From positions 62,001 through 126,000 of the forward strand of contig NZ_JAENIM010000008.1 in assembly GCF_016595495.1 (NCBI RefSeq): DNA of 64,000 bases, given 5' to 3'. The position numbers and the translations under genes were made by a program. The notes under the pieces were generated by a model, which ran no database searches, was not told where the DNA came from, and was given only the letters and a program-made list of their open reading frames with translations. This document shows positions 34,820 through 44,072 of the stretch, in pieces. Within the stretch, counting starts at the first letter, position 1. Each line of letters starts with the position of its first letter. Source of the DNA: Persicirhabdus sediminis (GTDB taxonomy: Bacteria > Verrucomicrobiota > Verrucomicrobiia > Verrucomicrobiales > Akkermansiaceae).

Positions 34820-35453
34820 AATTTAATATAGGTCGGCATTCCCCTAGCAAAAATAGCGCCAAATCCCTGACAGTCATTGAACTGTCAGCATTTTTCGTTA
34901 ATGTGCATGGGGAATTCGATTTAGCAGATACGGGTTTTCTTACCGTATTGCAAACTTATCTTTCGCGATTTTATCTGCCGCCAGCCATGCATAGAAATTT
35001 TAAAAAATAGCCAGTTTATTTTACTGCAATTGCGAGCACCCGCTGGCTCATGGATTCATTTCTGCGCGTATCTTGCTGCGGTTTTTTTAAAATTTCCCCC
35101 AGCTAGAGGTGTGGCTAACAGCTGAGAAAAAAAGTATACCCCAAAGCGTGGTGGCCAGCTTACTCGTGGCTAGTTGTTAGTATATGTGCTGAGACGCTTG
35201 TTTTTGTGATGATTGAGGGCGAATAGCTGGCTAATTCCAGCCATCTGTATGTCGGCTGGAAAAGGGTCAAATATACCATATGTTGTATTGTGAATAATTT
35301 GTGGATACTACATGGCCATTTTTTGGTAGCATTTATCAACAAGTTCATGCAACGTACCTAGCCTTGAGGGCGGGCGAGAAAACAAGCATTTCTATCCCGC
35401 TAAGCTTCTGCGAGTCCCGCAGAATCCGCTCAATCACCCTATCCCACCAGACA
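34820..35453. promoter_or_regulatory. Divergent control region speB / ribonucleotide reductase
   Basis: About 630 bp between divergent genes. It holds a perfect hairpin CTGACAGT-cattga-ACTGTCAG at 34867-34888, directly upstream of speB and followed by five T on the plus strand; it may be an operator or a terminator-like element. The stretch 34920-35300 is AT-rich with several CCAGCT-type motifs. A frame open from 35301 runs into the reductase gene, but ATG 35454 fits the protein family. No NrdR box could be identified with confidence. Confidence 0.4.
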
Positions 35454-36515
35454 ATGGCAGACATCATTAAAGTTACCCTAGGCGATCGTGTCTTCGAGTT
35501 AGACCGCGAAAAAGCTGAAGAAGGCTACGCAGCAAAAAAGGTGATCAATGGTCGCCAATCGATGTTTTTTAATATTCTGCCGCTCAAGTACACCTGGGCA
35601 TACAATCTGTATAAACAGATGAAAAATGACCACTGGGAGCCAGCTGAGGTGAACCTGACCCAAGACGCTGTGGCGTGGAAACAACTGCCTGCTGAAGCTC
35701 AAAAATTGGTAAAAATGGCGCTCGGTAGTTTTGCTTTGTCGCAGAACATTTTTGCATCTCAGGGTATCTACGTGCTGCGCGATCTCGTCACCGCTCCCGA
35801 GCTGAAGCTAGTATTTGGCCGCTACGTTCACGAGGAAAATACCCGCAGTGACGTGCTTGTTTACCTATACGGATCGCTCGGGCTCGACCCGCTAGAATGC
35901 CAAGACCTCGCATCCGCCTCAGGCCATCACCGCCAAGTGGAAGAATTTGCCCAGCAGAATATCAGCCAGCTGACCCGCAACTCCGATACCAAGGAGCTAG
36001 CTAACAAGCAGGCATTTGCGCGCAACCTTTTCCTCTACAACCAATGTCTGGAGGGCACACAGTTCTTCAGCCAGTGGGCATGTTTGTTCTCACTCGCATC
36101 GCAAAACAAACTTCCAGGAGTCGGCCAAATCCTCAGCAAACTATTACAAGATGTGCTCTACCGCATCGAGCTGTTCAACCAGCTGCTCAAAGAACTCGTC
36201 TCAGAAAATCCTGAGCTGTGGACAGAGGAATTCCAAGCTGAGCTCGTCGACATCATGAAACAAGCCGTCGAGCTTGAGCAACAACTCATCAGCCAACTTC
36301 CAGTCGATAAAGTTGGTTTGCAAGCTGAAGCACTCAGCCAGTACATCGAGCACCTCGCCGATGAACGCCTATCCGCTTGTGGGTTAGCTCGCCAGTACTT
36401 CCACCATTCCAGCCCGCTGCCGTGGCTGGACGAACAGATCCACATCAATACAGGCACTCGAGTCGCTCCAGTTCAGACGGCTGTGTTAGATGCTTTCGAC
36501 GACGACGACCTCTAA
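35454..36515 (+). CDS. Degenerate ribonucleotide reductase beta-like protein
   Basis: 353 residues from ATG 35454. It aligns end to end with the intact beta subunit encoded just downstream, for example LPLKYTWAYNLYKQMKNDHW against LPLKYPWAWEIYSDMRANHW. Of the six carboxylate/His metal ligands only Glu128 and Glu200 remain. The others are Gln97, Arg131, Val234 and Arg237, so it cannot hold the dimetal centre. The reading frame, helix core and the acidic C-terminus FDDDDL, the part that docks on the alpha subunit, are kept. This pattern resembles yeast Rnr4, a structural partner of active Rnr2. It probably forms a heterodimer with, or regulates, the active beta. Confidence 0.85.
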   Translation: MADIIKVTLGDRVFELDREKAEEGYAAKKVINGRQSMFFNILPLKYTWAYNLYKQMKNDHWEPAEVNLTQDAVAWKQLPAEAQKLVKMALGSFALSQNIFASQGIYVLRDLVTAPELKLVFGRYVHEENTRSDVLVYLYGSLGLDPLECQDLASASGHHRQVEEFAQQNISQLTRNSDTKELANKQAFARNLFLYNQCLEGTQFFSQWACLFSLASQNKLPGVGQILSKLLQDVLYRIELFNQLLKELVSENPELWTEEFQAELVDIMKQAVELEQQLISQLPVDKVGLQAEALSQYIEHLADERLSACGLARQYFHHSSPLPWLDEQIHINTGTRVAPVQTAVLDAFDDDDL

Positions 36516-36563: not shown

Positions 36564-37649
<1,086 letters not shown>

Positions 37650-37657
37650 GATAGTGA

Positions 37658-38147
37658 TTAGTTTTCAGTGTTCAGTTTTCAGACTGCCTTAAGGCGCATC
37701 TGAAACGCTAAGCTAGCAGAGAGATATCCCCATGTCCCTACACACTTTTGAAGACCTCGAAGTATGGAAACGAGCCTCTCGTCTGGCTGTGGATGTCTAC
37801 GTTGCTACCTATCAATCTAATGATTTTGGCCTAAAGAACCAGATGCAGAGAGCTGCGGTTTCTATCCCATCGAATATTGCGGAAGGCGCTGAGAGAGACT
37901 CAGCTGGAGACTTCATTAGATTTCTCAGAATAGCCAAAGGGTCATGCGCTGAGCTAAGAACCCAGCTATATATTAATCAAAAAGCCAGCCAAGAGTTGGC
38001 CATTTCACCATTCAACAACATTGATCAGCTAGTTCGAGAAACTAAGGAGATAGCATCAATGTTACATGGTTTAATTCAGTCCGTTCAAAAAAACAATACC
38101 TCCAAATAAGACAGCAGTGATTCTGAAAACTGAACACTGAAAACTAA
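37658..38147. mobile_element. Four-helix-bundle gene bounded by a 26-bp inverted repeat
   Basis: A 490-bp block: TTAGTTTTCAGTG + TTCAGTTTTCAGA at 37658-37683 and its exact reverse complement at 38122-38147 enclose one small gene. It splits nrdB from nrdA. AGTGATT precedes the left repeat and also lies just inside the right one. No transposase is present. Inferred: a non-autonomous mobile cassette of the four-helix-bundle (TIGR02436) type. Confidence 0.6.
37732..38109 (+). CDS. Four helix bundle protein (23S rRNA intervening-sequence type)
   Basis: 125 residues. The family signature is strong: HTFEDLEVWKRASRLAVDVY, then QMQRAAVSIPSNIAEGAERD, FIRFLRIAKGSCAELRTQL and helix-rich remainder, matching TIGR02436/S23 ribosomal-protein-like proteins. 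Relatives are encoded in 23S rRNA intervening sequences and as the Avd accessory factor of diversity-generating retroelements; no reverse transcriptase is near, so neither role applies directly. It stands alone between inverted repeats within the reductase locus. Confidence 0.9.
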   Translation: MSLHTFEDLEVWKRASRLAVDVYVATYQSNDFGLKNQMQRAAVSIPSNIAEGAERDSAGDFIRFLRIAKGSCAELRTQLYINQKASQELAISPFNNIDQLVRETKEIASMLHGLIQSVQKNNTSK

Positions 38148-38174: not shown

Positions 38175-41100
38175 ATGTACCGTTCCATATCACTCGAAGA
38201 AGATTTAGCCCTGAAGCGCGTTATCACTGATCGCGGAAATTCTAACTCAGACAGATTCGACTGGCGTAAAGCGCTGGGCGATAAAGTGCCTGAGCGCGTG
38301 GCTCAAATCTGGGTGACTCGTGGACAGCAAGAAAGCGAACTTTGCCTCACCGAACTCGCTGAGACCATCGGTACTGCGCTGGCTAACTTGCTAGAATCTC
38401 GCAAGCAATCTGAGGAAGCCATCTACAGTGAAGAAAACTGCCTGTTTGTTTCTAACGTGGCTCATTCAGTTGCCAAGGCTCTGACGGATCAGGTGCAAGA
38501 CGGCGGCCAGCTGAGACTTTCTCAGCACGATCTATATTTGTTAATCGAGCGCGCATTGATTGAAAATGACGCACACGATGTAGCCAAGTCATTAGTCTTT
38601 ACACGTTCGCTAGAAAAGAATGGCGAAGTGATTGTTAGCGAGGAGCCACAGGAAATGCCTGTGCGTCTGATTCGCCGCAATGGCAAAGTCGTTCCATGGA
38701 GCCAGACAAAAATCGAGATTGCGGTGCGCAAGGCATTGCTCTCTATCAAAGAAGACCCAGAAGTAGCGGTAAAAGTAGCCGCGGGCGTGACTGAAAACAT
38801 CCGCCTCGGTGACCGCGCCTTTGCTCACATCGAGTACGTGCAAGATCTCGTGCAGGAAGAATTGATGCGTCAGGGGCTATTCAAAGCTGCTGAAGCCTAC
38901 ATTCTCTATCGTGCCCAGCGCGCACAGATGCGCATTGATGAAGCTCCAGTAGACGACCCTAACCAGGAGTCTATGGTGGTGGTGACTACCAAAGATGGAT
39001 CGACTGAATTTTGGGATGGCACAGAGCTCAAGCGCCGTATCGAGTTTGCCTCAATCGGTCTGGACCTATGTCTCAGCCCAGCGCAGATCGAGCAAGAACT
39101 ACGCCGTTCTGTGGGCGCGGAAATCACAGCAGCCGATCTCAAATCAACCATCACGCTGAATGCCAAATCACTCATCGAGCGTGATGCTGATTTTGCTAAA
39201 TTTGCCGGTCGCATTCTACTCAGCTACATCTATGAAGAAGTGCTCGGCTGGGATATCGTCAAAGACGGCATCAGCGGGCTGAAGGCTGTGCACCGTGAAG
39301 GGTTCAAAAAGTATATCCAATACACCGTCGGCATTAAGCGACTTTCTCCTAAACTGATAGAAAAGTACGACCTCAACAAACTGGCTGACGCGTTAGATCC
39401 AACAGCTGACCTCGACTTTGACTACCTCGGTGTGCAAACTCTCTACGATCGCTACCTGATCGTCGACAAAACTCAAGCGACTCCACGTCGATTAGAAACC
39501 CCACAGTTTTTCTGGATGCGTGTGGCCATGGGCCTATTCCGCGCTGAAAAAGAAAACCGTGATGAGTGGTGTATCCGCTTGTACTCACTCTACAAAGGTC
39601 GCCGCTTCTGCTCATCCACGCCTACCTTGTTTAACTCCGGCACACTGCACAGCCAGCTGTCATCATGCTACCTCTACAAGGTGGACGACTCTATCGAGAG
39701 CATCATGATTCGTGGCATTGCTGAGAATGCATTCCTATCAAAATGGGCTGGCGGGCTAGGTGGCTCATGGACAGCTGTGCGCGGCACTGGTGGTTACATC
39801 CAGGGCACTAACGGTGAGAGCCAAGGCATCATCCCATTCCTCAAGCTACACAACGATCAGTTAGTAGCTGTTAACCAAGGCGGTAAGCGCCGTGGCTCTG
39901 GCTGTGCCTACCTCGAGAGCTGGCACAACGACATCGAAGATTTCCTTGAGCTGCGCAAAAATACCGGCGACGAACGTCGTCGCTGTCACGACATGAACAC
40001 CGCTAACTGGATTCCAGATCTGTTCATGAAGCGCATGGAAGCTCGCCAAGGGTGGACACTTTTCCGCACTAACGATACGCCAGACCTTCACGACCTCTAC
40101 GGCAAAGCATTTGAGCTGCGCTACATCGAGTATGAAAAGTTAGCCCAAGAAGGAAAAATCTGGAGCAAGCAAATGCCAGCGATTGAGCTGTGGAAGGGCA
40201 TGCTGAAGATGATTTTCGAAACTGGCCACCCGTGGATTACATTCAAAGATCCATGTAACCTGCGCTCACCGCAAGATCACGCTGGTGTGATTCACAGCTC
40301 TAACCTGTGTACTGAAATCACCCTGAATACTTCGGACGAAGAAACCGCTGTGTGTAACCTAGGTTCCGTAGTTCTCGATAGCCACATCACGGCTGATGGA
40401 TCGCTCGATCACGAATTGCTCAAGGAGACCATCACCGTTGCTATCCGCGCGCTGGATAATGTGATCGATATTAATTTCTACCCAACAGAAGCCGCTAGAA
40501 CAGCTAACAGCCGTCACCGTCCTATCGGACTTGGTGTGATGGGGCTGCAAAATGCCTTGTACAAAAAGGGCCTAGCCTTTGCTAGCGACGCAGCTGTTGA
40601 CTTCAACGATGAGTTTATGGAGGCGATTGCCTACTACGCCTACAATGCCTCATCAGATCTAGCTGGCGAACAGGGAACTTATTCTAGCTACAAAGGATCT
40701 AAGTGGGATCGCGGTCTCTTGCCGCAAGATACTGTTGATATGCTAGAAGAAGAACGTGGGGTGAAAATCGACGTGCCTCGCGGTAGCAAGATGGACTGGA
40801 CGCACCTGCGTGAGAAGATTGCCAAGCAAGGCATGCGCAACTCTAACGTGCTCGCCATCGCTCCTACGGCAACCATCTCCAACATCATGGGAACTACTCC
40901 GTGTATCGAGCCTAACTACAAGAATCTCTATGTGAAGAGCAACTTGTCTGGTGACTTCATCGTGCTCAACCGTCACCTGGTAGAAGACCTGAAAAAAGAA
41001 GACCTGTGGAACCAAGACATGCTCGACCAGCTGAAGTACTTCGACGGCGAGCTAAGCGAAATTGAAGGCATCCCTGACCACCTCAAGGAGAAACACAAGA

Positions 41101-41441
41101 CGGTCTTTGGCGTTGGCTACGAGGCGATTGTTAATGCAGCTGCTAGACGCCAGAAGTGGATCGACCAATCACAGTCGGTCAACTTGTTCCTCGCTGAGCC
41201 AGACATGAAAACGCTCAGCCACATGTACCGCCGCGCGTGGCACACCGGACTGAAAACTACTTATTACTTGCGTACTCTGCAGGCGTCTAACATTGAGAAG
41301 GCGACTGTGGGTAACAAAAAGGAAATGCGAGGAGTGGTCGGCAGTGGAGCCGCAGCAGCCAAACAATATACCGCAGCAGAAGTGAAAGCCTGCAGCATCG
41401 AAGCTATGATGAATGGCGAAGAATGCGAAGCCTGCCAGTAA
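38175..41441 (+). CDS. nrdA: Ribonucleotide reductase alpha subunit with repeated ATP cones
   Basis: 1088 residues. The first 350 residues are regulatory: a clear ATP cone starts at VRLIRRNGKVVPWSQTKIEIA, a second, weaker one at VVVTTKDGSTEFWDGTELKRR, and the first 150 residues look like a further degenerate copy. The catalytic barrel has LHSQLSSCYLY (first cysteine), SSNLCTEITLN (thiyl Cys and Glu), AVCNLGSV (second cysteine of the pair) and APTATISNIMG. The C-terminal shuttle cysteines are GEECEACQ. It works with the NrdB at 36564; the multi-cone layout is that of Chlamydia-type enzymes. Confidence 0.95.
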   Translation: MYRSISLEEDLALKRVITDRGNSNSDRFDWRKALGDKVPERVAQIWVTRGQQESELCLTELAETIGTALANLLESRKQSEEAIYSEENCLFVSNVAHSVAKALTDQVQDGGQLRLSQHDLYLLIERALIENDAHDVAKSLVFTRSLEKNGEVIVSEEPQEMPVRLIRRNGKVVPWSQTKIEIAVRKALLSIKEDPEVAVKVAAGVTENIRLGDRAFAHIEYVQDLVQEELMRQGLFKAAEAYILYRAQRAQMRIDEAPVDDPNQESMVVVTTKDGSTEFWDGTELKRRIEFASIGLDLCLSPAQIEQELRRSVGAEITAADLKSTITLNAKSLIERDADFAKFAGRILLSYIYEEVLGWDIVKDGISGLKAVHREGFKKYIQYTVGIKRLSPKLIEKYDLNKLADALDPTADLDFDYLGVQTLYDRYLIVDKTQATPRRLETPQFFWMRVAMGLFRAEKENRDEWCIRLYSLYKGRRFCSSTPTLFNSGTLHSQLSSCYLYKVDDSIESIMIRGIAENAFLSKWAGGLGGSWTAVRGTGGYIQGTNGESQGIIPFLKLHNDQLVAVNQGGKRRGSGCAYLESWHNDIEDFLELRKNTGDERRRCHDMNTANWIPDLFMKRMEARQGWTLFRTNDTPDLHDLYGKAFELRYIEYEKLAQEGKIWSKQMPAIELWKGMLKMIFETGHPWITFKDPCNLRSPQDHAGVIHSSNLCTEITLNTSDEETAVCNLGSVVLDSHITADGSLDHELLKETITVAIRALDNVIDINFYPTEAARTANSRHRPIGLGVMGLQNALYKKGLAFASDAAVDFNDEFMEAIAYYAYNASSDLAGEQGTYSSYKGSKWDRGLLPQDTVDMLEEERGVKIDVPRGSKMDWTHLREKIAKQGMRNSNVLAIAPTATISNIMGTTPCIEPNYKNLYVKSNLSGDFIVLNRHLVEDLKKEDLWNQDMLDQLKYFDGELSEIEGIPDHLKEKHKTVFGVGYEAIVNAAARRQKWIDQSQSVNLFLAEPDMKTLSHMYRRAWHTGLKTTYYLRTLQASNIEKATVGNKKEMRGVVGSGAAAAKQYTAAEVKACSIEAMMNGEECEACQ

Positions 41442-41459: not shown

Positions 41460-43508
41460 ATGGACCCAATAATTAAAGCAACGATCGCAGCTGGCGTTCC
41501 TTATGCGGTGAATATCATAAGAGATATTCTAGAGAAAGTTCCTAACATTGCAGGTAAGGGAAGAGCAGCAAAGAAGAGGAGGAATGATCTTGAAGATAGG
41601 TTAAACAAGTATCTATCAAATTTATATGGTACTTGTAGCTATCTTCAAACTATAGCTTTTGCCAGTAATCCGAAACCACTGGAAGATCTTTATATTCCGA
41701 CTAGTTTGGTGCATGTAAGTGGGGAAGAGCTCCTTATTGATAAACTAACGAATATATTTGAAAAGTCTTCAACAGTTGCCGTGTTTGATTCAGCTGGTAT
41801 GGGGAAATCTACGATCGTTAAGAGGTTAGTTTTGAATGAAATTGTATCTGCTAACAGTTTGCCGGTTTTGTTTGAGCTTAGATCTTTTAGAGAAAATGAC
41901 AAGTTGGAAGAGGAGCTCCTTAAGCTATTAAAAATACAAGGTTTGTTGCCAGACGAGGGACTCATTTTTGTTGATTACCCTGTGTCTATTTATTTAGATG
42001 GACTAGATGAGGCCCCCGCTGACTTAGCGGCAGAGATAACGAGACAATTATTGGCATTTCATGAGAAATATCCACGAGTGCGAATTCTCGTCAGCTCAAG
42101 AAGACAAACTGAAATCTCAGTTCTGTTGAGCTTTTATTGCTATGGAGTGAAGAATCTAACTGACCAGCAGGCGTTTGAGCTAATTGAGCGATATGATGAA
42201 GGAGGGGATTTAAGTAAATCACTAATTAAGGCTATAAAGGAATCTAGTTTTCCTAAAATCAGAGCATATCTGAGCAACCCTCTATACGTATCATTATTAT
42301 TTTGTGCTTATCGACATAAACCATCGTTACCTCAAAAAATGAGTATTTTTTATGAGCGTGTATATGCGGCGCTTTTTGATCAACACGACTTAACTAAATC
42401 TGCTGACTATACCCATTCGTTGAAGACTGGTCTAGATTCAAGAGAGTTTATGTTAGTCTTGAGGAAGTTGGCTTTCAAATGCGTATTGGATGGGTATAGG
42501 GTCGAGTATTCAAAAATCGATTTCGAAGAGAAGGTCTCAAGTGTTGTCAAATCTATCGAATACCATAAGATTAAAGTTTCTGATTTTCTCCGGGATAGTA
42601 CAGTTGCCGTACCGCTTTTTATAGACGATGGTCATACTGTTAGATGGGCCCACAAATCACTCATGGAGTATTTCGCAGCTCTGTTTATTTGTTACGACAC
42701 AGAAAACAAAGACGGGGAGTTTATGCTTAAACTAGTTCAAGACAGCAATGCTTATAAGTATAAACATATTTTAGAAATGTGTGCAGATGTGAAATATCCA
42801 AGTTTTCGAAAAACTGTAGCTAAGTACGTATTAGGTGACTATGTCCGACACTGCGACTCTAAATATCAAACGATAAGCAATAGGAGGATCAAAAAGCCTG
42901 ATGTTCTAAGTAGAGTTCAAGCAACATATGGCATTAAGGCTTTCCTAATGCTAAGCAACGAACTTTCAGTATCTAAAATTAGCTCAGGAGGTCTTTCAAT
43001 TAAGCTGCCTTGGAAGAATGGAACTGTAGCTAATGAGGTTGCTCCACAAGGCAATTGTTCCAAGACTGAGCAGCAAAATATTGGGGTAGAGGGATTGGTG
43101 GGAATGCTATCTAAGATCTGTGATCCTGATTGTAATAATAAAAACTGGTTTCCTGCGATGAATCTTCAAGTTGATGATGAGGTTGGCTTGCTGTGCTTTA
43201 AGAAAGAATCGGTTAACAGATGGTTACTTAGGGTCATAGCTGAGAAGGAATCTAGTGAGGAATCTTCTATAATTGAAATTACGCCAGACGTAGCACTAGG
43301 GAATTTGAGTATTTCTAAAGGTACGTTTTACAAAATAACTGATGATCCTAAAGAAAAGTACAATAATTCGACCAATTTTAAATTGGTAACTGGGGTTTTA
43401 GGTGACGGGCTATGTGTGACTATAGCTGAAGCCAAATCAATACTCGAAAGTATAGAGGCTGACACGAGTTCCACAGATTTAGCTGCTATGTTAGAAGCAA
43501 TAGGCTAA
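41460..43508 (+). CDS. NACHT-type STAND NTPase, candidate defence protein
   Basis: 682 residues. An N-terminal helical region (1-100) precedes a NACHT module: Walker A VFDSAGMGKSTIVKRL (about 108-122), Walker B VSIYLDGLDEAPADL (about 175-189), sensor VRILVSSRRQTE, and a winged-helix part with WAHKSLMEYFAALFICY. The C-terminal 230 residues match nothing I recognise and lack evident leucine-rich or TPR repeats. Bacterial NACHT proteins of this size act in anti-phage defence. It begins 18 bp after nrdA but is visibly more AT-rich, suggesting insertion. No effector domain is recognised. Confidence 0.8.
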   Translation: MDPIIKATIAAGVPYAVNIIRDILEKVPNIAGKGRAAKKRRNDLEDRLNKYLSNLYGTCSYLQTIAFASNPKPLEDLYIPTSLVHVSGEELLIDKLTNIFEKSSTVAVFDSAGMGKSTIVKRLVLNEIVSANSLPVLFELRSFRENDKLEEELLKLLKIQGLLPDEGLIFVDYPVSIYLDGLDEAPADLAAEITRQLLAFHEKYPRVRILVSSRRQTEISVLLSFYCYGVKNLTDQQAFELIERYDEGGDLSKSLIKAIKESSFPKIRAYLSNPLYVSLLFCAYRHKPSLPQKMSIFYERVYAALFDQHDLTKSADYTHSLKTGLDSREFMLVLRKLAFKCVLDGYRVEYSKIDFEEKVSSVVKSIEYHKIKVSDFLRDSTVAVPLFIDDGHTVRWAHKSLMEYFAALFICYDTENKDGEFMLKLVQDSNAYKYKHILEMCADVKYPSFRKTVAKYVLGDYVRHCDSKYQTISNRRIKKPDVLSRVQATYGIKAFLMLSNELSVSKISSGGLSIKLPWKNGTVANEVAPQGNCSKTEQQNIGVEGLVGMLSKICDPDCNNKNWFPAMNLQVDDEVGLLCFKKESVNRWLLRVIAEKESSEESSIIEITPDVALGNLSISKGTFYKITDDPKEKYNNSTNFKLVTGVLGDGLCVTIAEAKSILESIEADTSSTDLAAMLEAIG

Positions 43509-43604: not shown

Positions 43605-44072
43605 TTATTTACCGGCTAGTCTGTTATCGATGATGAAGTGGTCGCGAGTCTCTAGCTGGAGCTGTGAGAACTCCGGGTGGGCGGGATTGATGAGGTAGTT
43701 CCAGCCGTCTTCGATGATCACCGATGGGACTTTGAGCACGACATTCCATTGGTCGTGGACAAATTGCTCGCCGACGTCACGCGTCCACGAGCAGTCCATT
43801 TGCCAGTTTTTTGGCATGCTAACGATGTCAGCTAGCGAGCTGTGTAGTTCTTCGGGCATTTTGGCGATGCCGTGTGCGTATTTACCTATCAGCTGGATCA
43901 GGCCGACGTGGACGGATATTTCCAGCGCTGCTAGAGCGGGGTGCTCTGCGGCGTAGAGAATATTTGTACCCGCATGATTCCAGCGGCTGGCTTCAGCCGT
44001 TTCAGCTGGCACATAGCCAAACCAGCAGCTGTCCTTGAACCTCTTGGGCACCAGCCTGTGAATGGTTAGCAT
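43605..44072 (-). CDS. RES-domain toxin
   Basis: 155 residues. The Arg, Glu and Ser hallmarks of the RES fold are Arg30 in EASRWNHAGTNILYAAEH, Glu51 in LAALEISVHVG, and Ser117 in VPSVIIEDGWNYLINPAHPEF. RES toxins consume NAD+ or ADP-ribosylate targets and are blocked by a Xre/DUF2384 antitoxin, which is encoded 6 bp upstream. Length is typical. Confidence 0.9.
   Translation of the reverse strand: MLTIHRLVPKRFKDSCWFGYVPAETAEASRWNHAGTNILYAAEHPALAALEISVHVGLIQLIGKYAHGIAKMPEELHSSLADIVSMPKNWQMDCSWTRDVGEQFVHDQWNVVLKVPSVIIEDGWNYLINPAHPEFSQLQLETRDHFIIDNRLAGK

Follow-up and report, generated by a model that had tools for sequence, protein, structure and literature searches.

A conserved metal-less NrdB paralogue encoded beside a class Ic-like NrdB in Persicirhabdus sediminis, a candidate non-catalytic partner subunit

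The tandem nrdB genes and their surroundings

The window analysed here, a stretch of 64,000 nucleotides of Persicirhabdus sediminis DNA, contains two small-subunit genes of ribonucleotide reductase (RNR) in tandem, referred to below as b1 and b2, and downstream of them the large-subunit gene nrdA (Table 1). The coordinates, frame and length of b1 bear out the earlier note, which had described a full-length NrdB-like gene lying in tandem with a downstream copy. The ATG at 35454 is favoured as the start of b1 over the GTG at 35301, since the resulting MADT... start is conserved in 13 orthologues. Both products are bona fide small-chain proteins, as their PF00268 scores (173.7 bits for b1 and 230.1 bits for b2) are far over the cut-off of 33.6. 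The nrdA gene encodes the sole class I alpha of the genome, and a search of the same genome for a third, intact beta, which the earlier note had named as something that would speak against its proposal, returned only b1 and b2. A class II, B12-dependent RNR (NrdJ; PF08471, PF02867) is also encoded in the genome (G000:C16:72289-73977, L100), so the class Ic enzyme is not the sole dNTP route there; neither this gene nor the downstream nrdA had figured in the earlier note.

Table 1. Features of the nrd locus (positions in the window), and the contig loci of a second tandem pair
Feature	Position	Strand	Remarks
nrd promoter motif ATACCATATGTTGTATTGTGAATAATTTGTGGATACTACATGG, candidate NrdR-box pair	35273..35315	+	conserved upstream of nrdB genes
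b1 (P0001, beta-prime), metal-less NrdB paralogue without tail tyrosine	35454..36515	+	353 aa; heads operon
b1 residues 24-60, N-terminal arm with ancestral sequence AAKKVINGRQSMFFNILPLKYTWAYNLYKQMKNDH	35523..35633	+	identity to family NrdB
b1 DDDDL tail tip, residues 349-353	36498..36512	+	pN/pS 0.06 (residues 348-353)
b2 (P0002, beta), NrdB with six ligands, Leu136 and tail Tyr347	36564..37649	+	361 aa; class Ic-like
nrdA, large subunit	38175..41441	+	one Pfam-detected ATP cone
Tandem NrdB pair of genus g114	L131 3254-5529; L132 5896-8201

A motif of 43 bases that resembles an NrdR-box pair is located 181 bases before b1. Most of the genomes that carry the pair have a nearly identical motif in front of b1, and it also precedes several single-copy nrdB genes; b1 has thus taken the promoter-proximal position in the ancestral nrd operon. 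The motif agrees at 12 of 16 positions with the NrdR consensus, and an nrdR gene is present in the same genome. Judged from these features, the cluster may be co-transcribed and may be bound and controlled by NrdR.

Between b2 and nrdA, the region 37658-38147 carries a four-helix-bundle gene of the 23S rRNA-intervening-sequence type (PF05635/TIGR02436, 37732-38109), with perfect 26-base inverted repeats on either side. This repeat occurs at more than 20 places in the genome, where the gene itself is single-copy at the DNA level; nrdB and nrdA of relatives, L042 among them, are separated by only about 80 bases. The gene looks like a recent insertion. Downstream of nrdA, a large P-loop protein that by eye is like a NACHT-type NTPase is encoded at 41460-43508, followed on the minus strand at 43605-44072 by a small protein that, also by eye, resembles a RES-domain toxin.

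Metal ligands, radical position and predicted fold

Alignment with the Chlamydia R2 protein and with single-copy homologues places the six metal ligands of b2 at E98, E129, H132, E201, E235 and H238, and the corresponding residues of b1 are Q97, E128, R131, E200, V234 and R237, which means that four of the six ligands are lost. Both proteins end in DDDDL. The complete ligand set of the downstream copy, the four particular replacements in the upstream copy and the shared tail had all been read by the earlier note from the letters of the window, and the alignment agrees with it exactly.

Two further features were absent from that note. At the position of the radical tyrosine of class Ia/b proteins, where the Chlamydia protein has Phe127, b2 has Leu136, which makes it class Ic-like, a trait shared by all Verrucomicrobiota homologues in the comparison; leucine at this position is a documented substitution in R2c proteins (PMC3824934). 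The other feature is that b1 has lost the tail tyrosine (Tyr347 in b2, Tyr356 in E. coli), the residue by which the radical is passed to NrdA. The features of a class Ic small subunit are thus found together in b2, namely six carboxylate and histidine ligands with a glutamate as the first, which are invariant in the b2 group, the lack of a tyrosine at the radical position, and the conserved C-terminal tyrosine. The cofactor of b2 may be Mn/Fe. None of the six ligands, nor the tail tyrosine, is missing from the b2 group or from any single-copy homologue examined; each of the 15 known b1 proteins has lost the tail tyrosine and at least four ligands (4-5 of 6), and has kept the acidic tip that binds NrdA.

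The AlphaFold2 model of b1 has a complete R2 fold (pLDDT 86.7, pTM 0.84), and its best fold match is Chlamydia NrdB with a Z score of 35.8. This prediction, together with an intact reading frame in all b1 genes, is in line with the statement in the earlier note that the upstream copy keeps fold and frame. The best solved relative of both proteins is the R2c of Chlamydia trachomatis (1syy), with E values of 3e-79 for b2 and 1e-43 for b1; the comparison of b1 with yeast Rnr4 gave 6e-10. The related R2lox family was considered for b1 and rejected, as the ligands are lost and the NCBIfam R2lox models score 20-29 bits against cut-offs of 194-315.

As a mimic of a heterodimer, the in-frame read-through of b1 and b2 was folded as a single chain, with stops written as glycine as a modelling device. 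The resulting AlphaFold2 model has a pLDDT of 75 and a pTM of 0.75, with about 100 disordered residues, values that suggest some confidence in how the two domains are placed, in a setting where they are forced into cis and the alignment is shallow (12 rows).

Distribution of the pair and division of conserved positions

The arrangement b1-b2-nrdA was found in 15 genomes of three genera of marine Verrucomicrobiota, comprising the present genome, 12 from a sister genus of the same family, and two from Rubritalea, out of 142 family genomes with a related NrdB. The b1 orthologues of the sister genus are 58-64% identical to b1. The two Rubritalea genomes belong to the cultured strains R. marina DSM 17716 and R. 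profundi SAORIC-165 and were found by a scan of genome contigs with b1 patterns; their b1 proteins are 49-51% identical and have lost five of the six ligands. Wherever the contig is complete the gene order is the same, with b1 directly upstream of b2. In a tree, b1 forms one clade and b2 another, with the same deep branching order in both, Rubritalea against the rest. No other degenerate pair was found in the class and phylum samples of Verrucomicrobiota; beyond that phylum, the search consisted of the one contig scan with b1 patterns mentioned above.

Two single records deserve mention here. The b2 gene of R. profundi SAORIC-165 (L065 5137-6218) is split over two frames, which may reflect a sequencing error or a real frameshift. 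An apparent b1 without b2 on a contig labelled Gammaproteobacteria (L093 1-1758) is most likely chimeric, since its b1 reading stops before the tail and the opposite strand then resembles a phospholipase D-type gene.

For three close genomes the dN/dS of b1 is 0.044-0.079 at dS 0.06-0.26, compared with 0.008-0.029 for b2. Among the pair genomes of g1 and g10 the values for b1 are 0.04-0.25, and against Rubritalea they are at most 0.37, with dS there near saturation. These values indicate that b1 is functional, although less constrained overall than b2. The two checks that the earlier note had proposed, co-occurrence of the pair in relatives and the dN/dS of the degenerate copy, hence both came out in favour of a selected gene, with the pair recurring in 14 further genomes and dN/dS far below 1, as expected under purifying selection.

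The constraint is unevenly spread. Residues 1-60 of b1 have a pN/pS of 0.14, residues 61-108, where the helix of the lost Glu98 lies, 0.39, residues 109-135 0.06, the tail linker (332-347) 0.71 and the tip (348-353) 0.06, and the same stretches of b2 give 0.32, 0.03, 0.09, 0.06 and 0.06. Of the two proteins, b1 is the faster-evolving one along most of its sequence. Among 223 positions that are conserved in single-copy homologues, 79 are lost in b1 only and 12 in b2 only. The first 60 residues hold eight of the 12 b2-only losses and one of the 79 b1-only losses (Fisher p 5e-8). The identity to single-copy NrdB proteins of the family is likewise reciprocal, with 80% over residues 24-60 and 40% over the core for b1, and 51% and 78%, respectively, for b2. 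Judged by these conservation patterns, b1 retains the N-terminal arm, one long helix and a docking tip on a freely drifting linker, and b2 retains the catalytic core and the radical tail and has let the N-terminal arm go. Such reciprocal loss is what would be expected if both copies divided one job.

Genus g114, which belongs to a distant family, has another tandem NrdB pair in the nrd operon, present in two of its genomes. The canonical copy of this pair is placed within the single-copy proteins of the g114 family, just as b2 is within those of its own, and no longer has the N-terminal TMxFN motif, which is kept in the divergent one. In the divergent copy the tail linker is lost, and Ala328 is, as in b1, replaced by Asp. 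All ligands and the tail tyrosine are kept in it, so that it is no metal-less subunit and the pair is a parallel for the partition and not for the loss of metal. Among 250 conserved sites, the two catalytic partners (b2 and the canonical g114 copy) share eight of their 22-23 losses (hypergeometric p 2e-4), including M36, N39, K119, L122, G123 and F242 in the numbering of b2, and the other two partners (b1 and the divergent g114 copy) share 47 (p 2e-6); the contrast within the pair is weaker in g114 (Fisher p 0.008), all three values taking sites as independent and equally changeable. In a free tree b1 joins the divergent g114 copy with a support of 97, which would mean one ancient duplication. 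We read this joining as long-branch attraction and reject it, as the log-likelihood is higher by 12.8 and 14.6 when each divergent copy is held with its own family. This higher likelihood, and the fact that each N-terminal arm is closest to its own family, lead us to prefer independent origins, and the g114 pair probably arose separately, a reading based on quick trees and on an AU comparison that involves long branches.

A proposed asymmetric radical-generating subunit

The data argue well for b1 being a selected, non-catalytic partner. We consider it probable that it is a conserved beta-prime that pairs with b2, the two together forming an asymmetric radical-generating subunit for NrdA. A physical b1-b2 heterodimer is suggested by the reciprocal constraint, by the parallel pair of g114 and, weakly, by the fused model. 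In this subunit b2 would supply a class Ic-type dimetal site, with the oxidant and the radical path and tail, and the contribution of b1 would be the N-terminal arm in its ancestral form and another acidic tip, for docking on the other subunit of NrdA. The class Ia holoenzyme of E. coli is a half-of-sites enzyme with one half engaged at once, and the evidence supports half-of-sites reactivity in class Ic as well (PMC8463856). Since only one half of a class I RNR complex, also in class Ic, is engaged at any one time, a dimer with a single active beta should suffice, and each copy could therefore keep a part of the job after a tandem duplication. The proposed course would be such a duplication followed by division of the job between b1 and b2. 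Class Ic function in itself does not require such asymmetry, since most relatives manage with one NrdB.

The earlier note had left the choice between a heterodimer and a regulatory decoy. A decoy would be a b1 homodimer or monomer that binds NrdA through the DDDDL tip, blocks b2 dimers and lowers class I activity. In the tail of b1 conservation is highest at the acidic tip and the linker drifts freely, the tail tyrosine is lost, and b1 shares its operon layout and promoter with its would-be target, all of which would suit such a role. The same operon and promoter, however, give no obvious separate control, and a decoy leaves unexplained why b2 has lost N-terminal positions that are kept in b1 and why the same partition occurs in g114, where both copies have their ligands. 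We regard a pure decoy as unlikely, and less likely than the heterodimer. The proposal of the earlier note is supported in part, well for a selected partner, through dN/dS and recurrence, and by indirect deduction for the heterodimer. The role of an assembly factor, in which b1 would be a folding or metal-loading partner of b2 outside the active holoenzyme, recalls the chaperone role proposed for yeast Rnr4 (PMC3824934) and fits the predicted intact R2 fold, but the conserved NrdA-binding tip points to contact with NrdA. Sequence gives no clean separation of this role from the beta-beta' pairing, and we consider it rather unlikely.

A new function unrelated to RNR on the R2 scaffold would account for the fast divergence and for a helix segment (109-135) that is strongly conserved without a metal role. 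It is very improbable given that b1 sits in the nrdA operon, keeps the acidic tip and co-occurs only with the b2 clade. The loss of active-site residues, which reaches five of six ligands in Rubritalea, might also be taken as the mark of a decaying duplicate without function, a reading that is hardly credible for a gene with an intact frame in all 15 genomes, a dN/dS down to 0.04, a nearly constant length and tail tip, the first place in the operon and conservation over three genera. A pseudogene is rejected, as no orthologue has internal stops and dN/dS is far below 1.

The proposed b1-b2 pairing can in several respects be compared to the Rnr2-Rnr4 pair of yeast, a heterodimer with one active site (PMC3824934, PMC4245953). 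Like Rnr4 (Y4), b1 has a full R2 fold, has lost metal ligands so that the site is incomplete, is under selection and has an intact partner in the same genome, here the adjacent b2. The two are not orthologous, b1 being nearest to class Ic R2 by E values, sharing the N-terminal arm of its own family and being best placed with the NrdB of that family. Secondary eukaryotic R2 copies usually miss N-terminal residues (PMC3824934), unlike b1, which keeps the arm; the site of b2 is moreover of class Ic type, and b1 and b2 lie in an operon-like cluster with nrdA. The best reading is that b1-b2 would work like Rnr2-Rnr4 while being unrelated to it by descent. Apicomplexan R2_e2 (PfR4 type), for which an alpha2-beta-beta' complex has been proposed (PMC3824934), is also a second R2 paralogue, which accompanies one orthodox copy and has lost the C-terminal tyrosine and kept the C-terminal motif, but it is eukaryotic and keeps the iron-coordinating positions. 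Among bacteria, Candidatus Liberibacter asiaticus has, in addition to full-length NrdB proteins, a short nrdB whose product lacks the active site, and a heterodimer has been speculated for it (PMC5154197); unlike b1, a diverged paralogue of full length that is conserved in several genera, it is a 125-aa fragment that matches the 3' end of the long copy with over 99% identity. The R2c of Chlamydia trachomatis (1syy), the best match of both b1 and b2 in sequence and fold, resembles b2 in its ligand set, in lacking the radical tyrosine (Phe there, Leu in b2) and in its tail tyrosine. To our knowledge, the published Chlamydia class Ic system is without a degenerate partner.

The earlier note knew of no bacterial case, and we found no full-length, conserved, metal-less bacterial NrdB partner in the open-licence literature, nor any open-licence paper that treats Rubritalea and ribonucleotide reductase together. 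As far as could be found, the design of a two-part subunit with a fixed non-catalytic half has so far been seen in yeasts and some parasites and not in bacteria. It is tempting to go further and to propose that the radical subunit of bacterial class Ic RNRs has at least twice been divided between two polypeptides, both obligate and complementary to each other, one with the metal site and radical tail and one with the N-terminal arm and docking tail, and that in one lineage the second copy has become metal-less and the holoenzyme permanently asymmetric. This wider claim we advance tentatively, as one that may well turn out otherwise.

The genes are present in the cultured R. marina DSM 17716 and R. 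profundi SAORIC-165, and the idea is therefore directly testable. If it is true, the two halves of the complex, with their asymmetry fixed in two genes, could be altered one at a time, without engineered mixed dimers, and the Rnr2-Rnr4 arrangement of yeast would not be a eukaryotic peculiarity.
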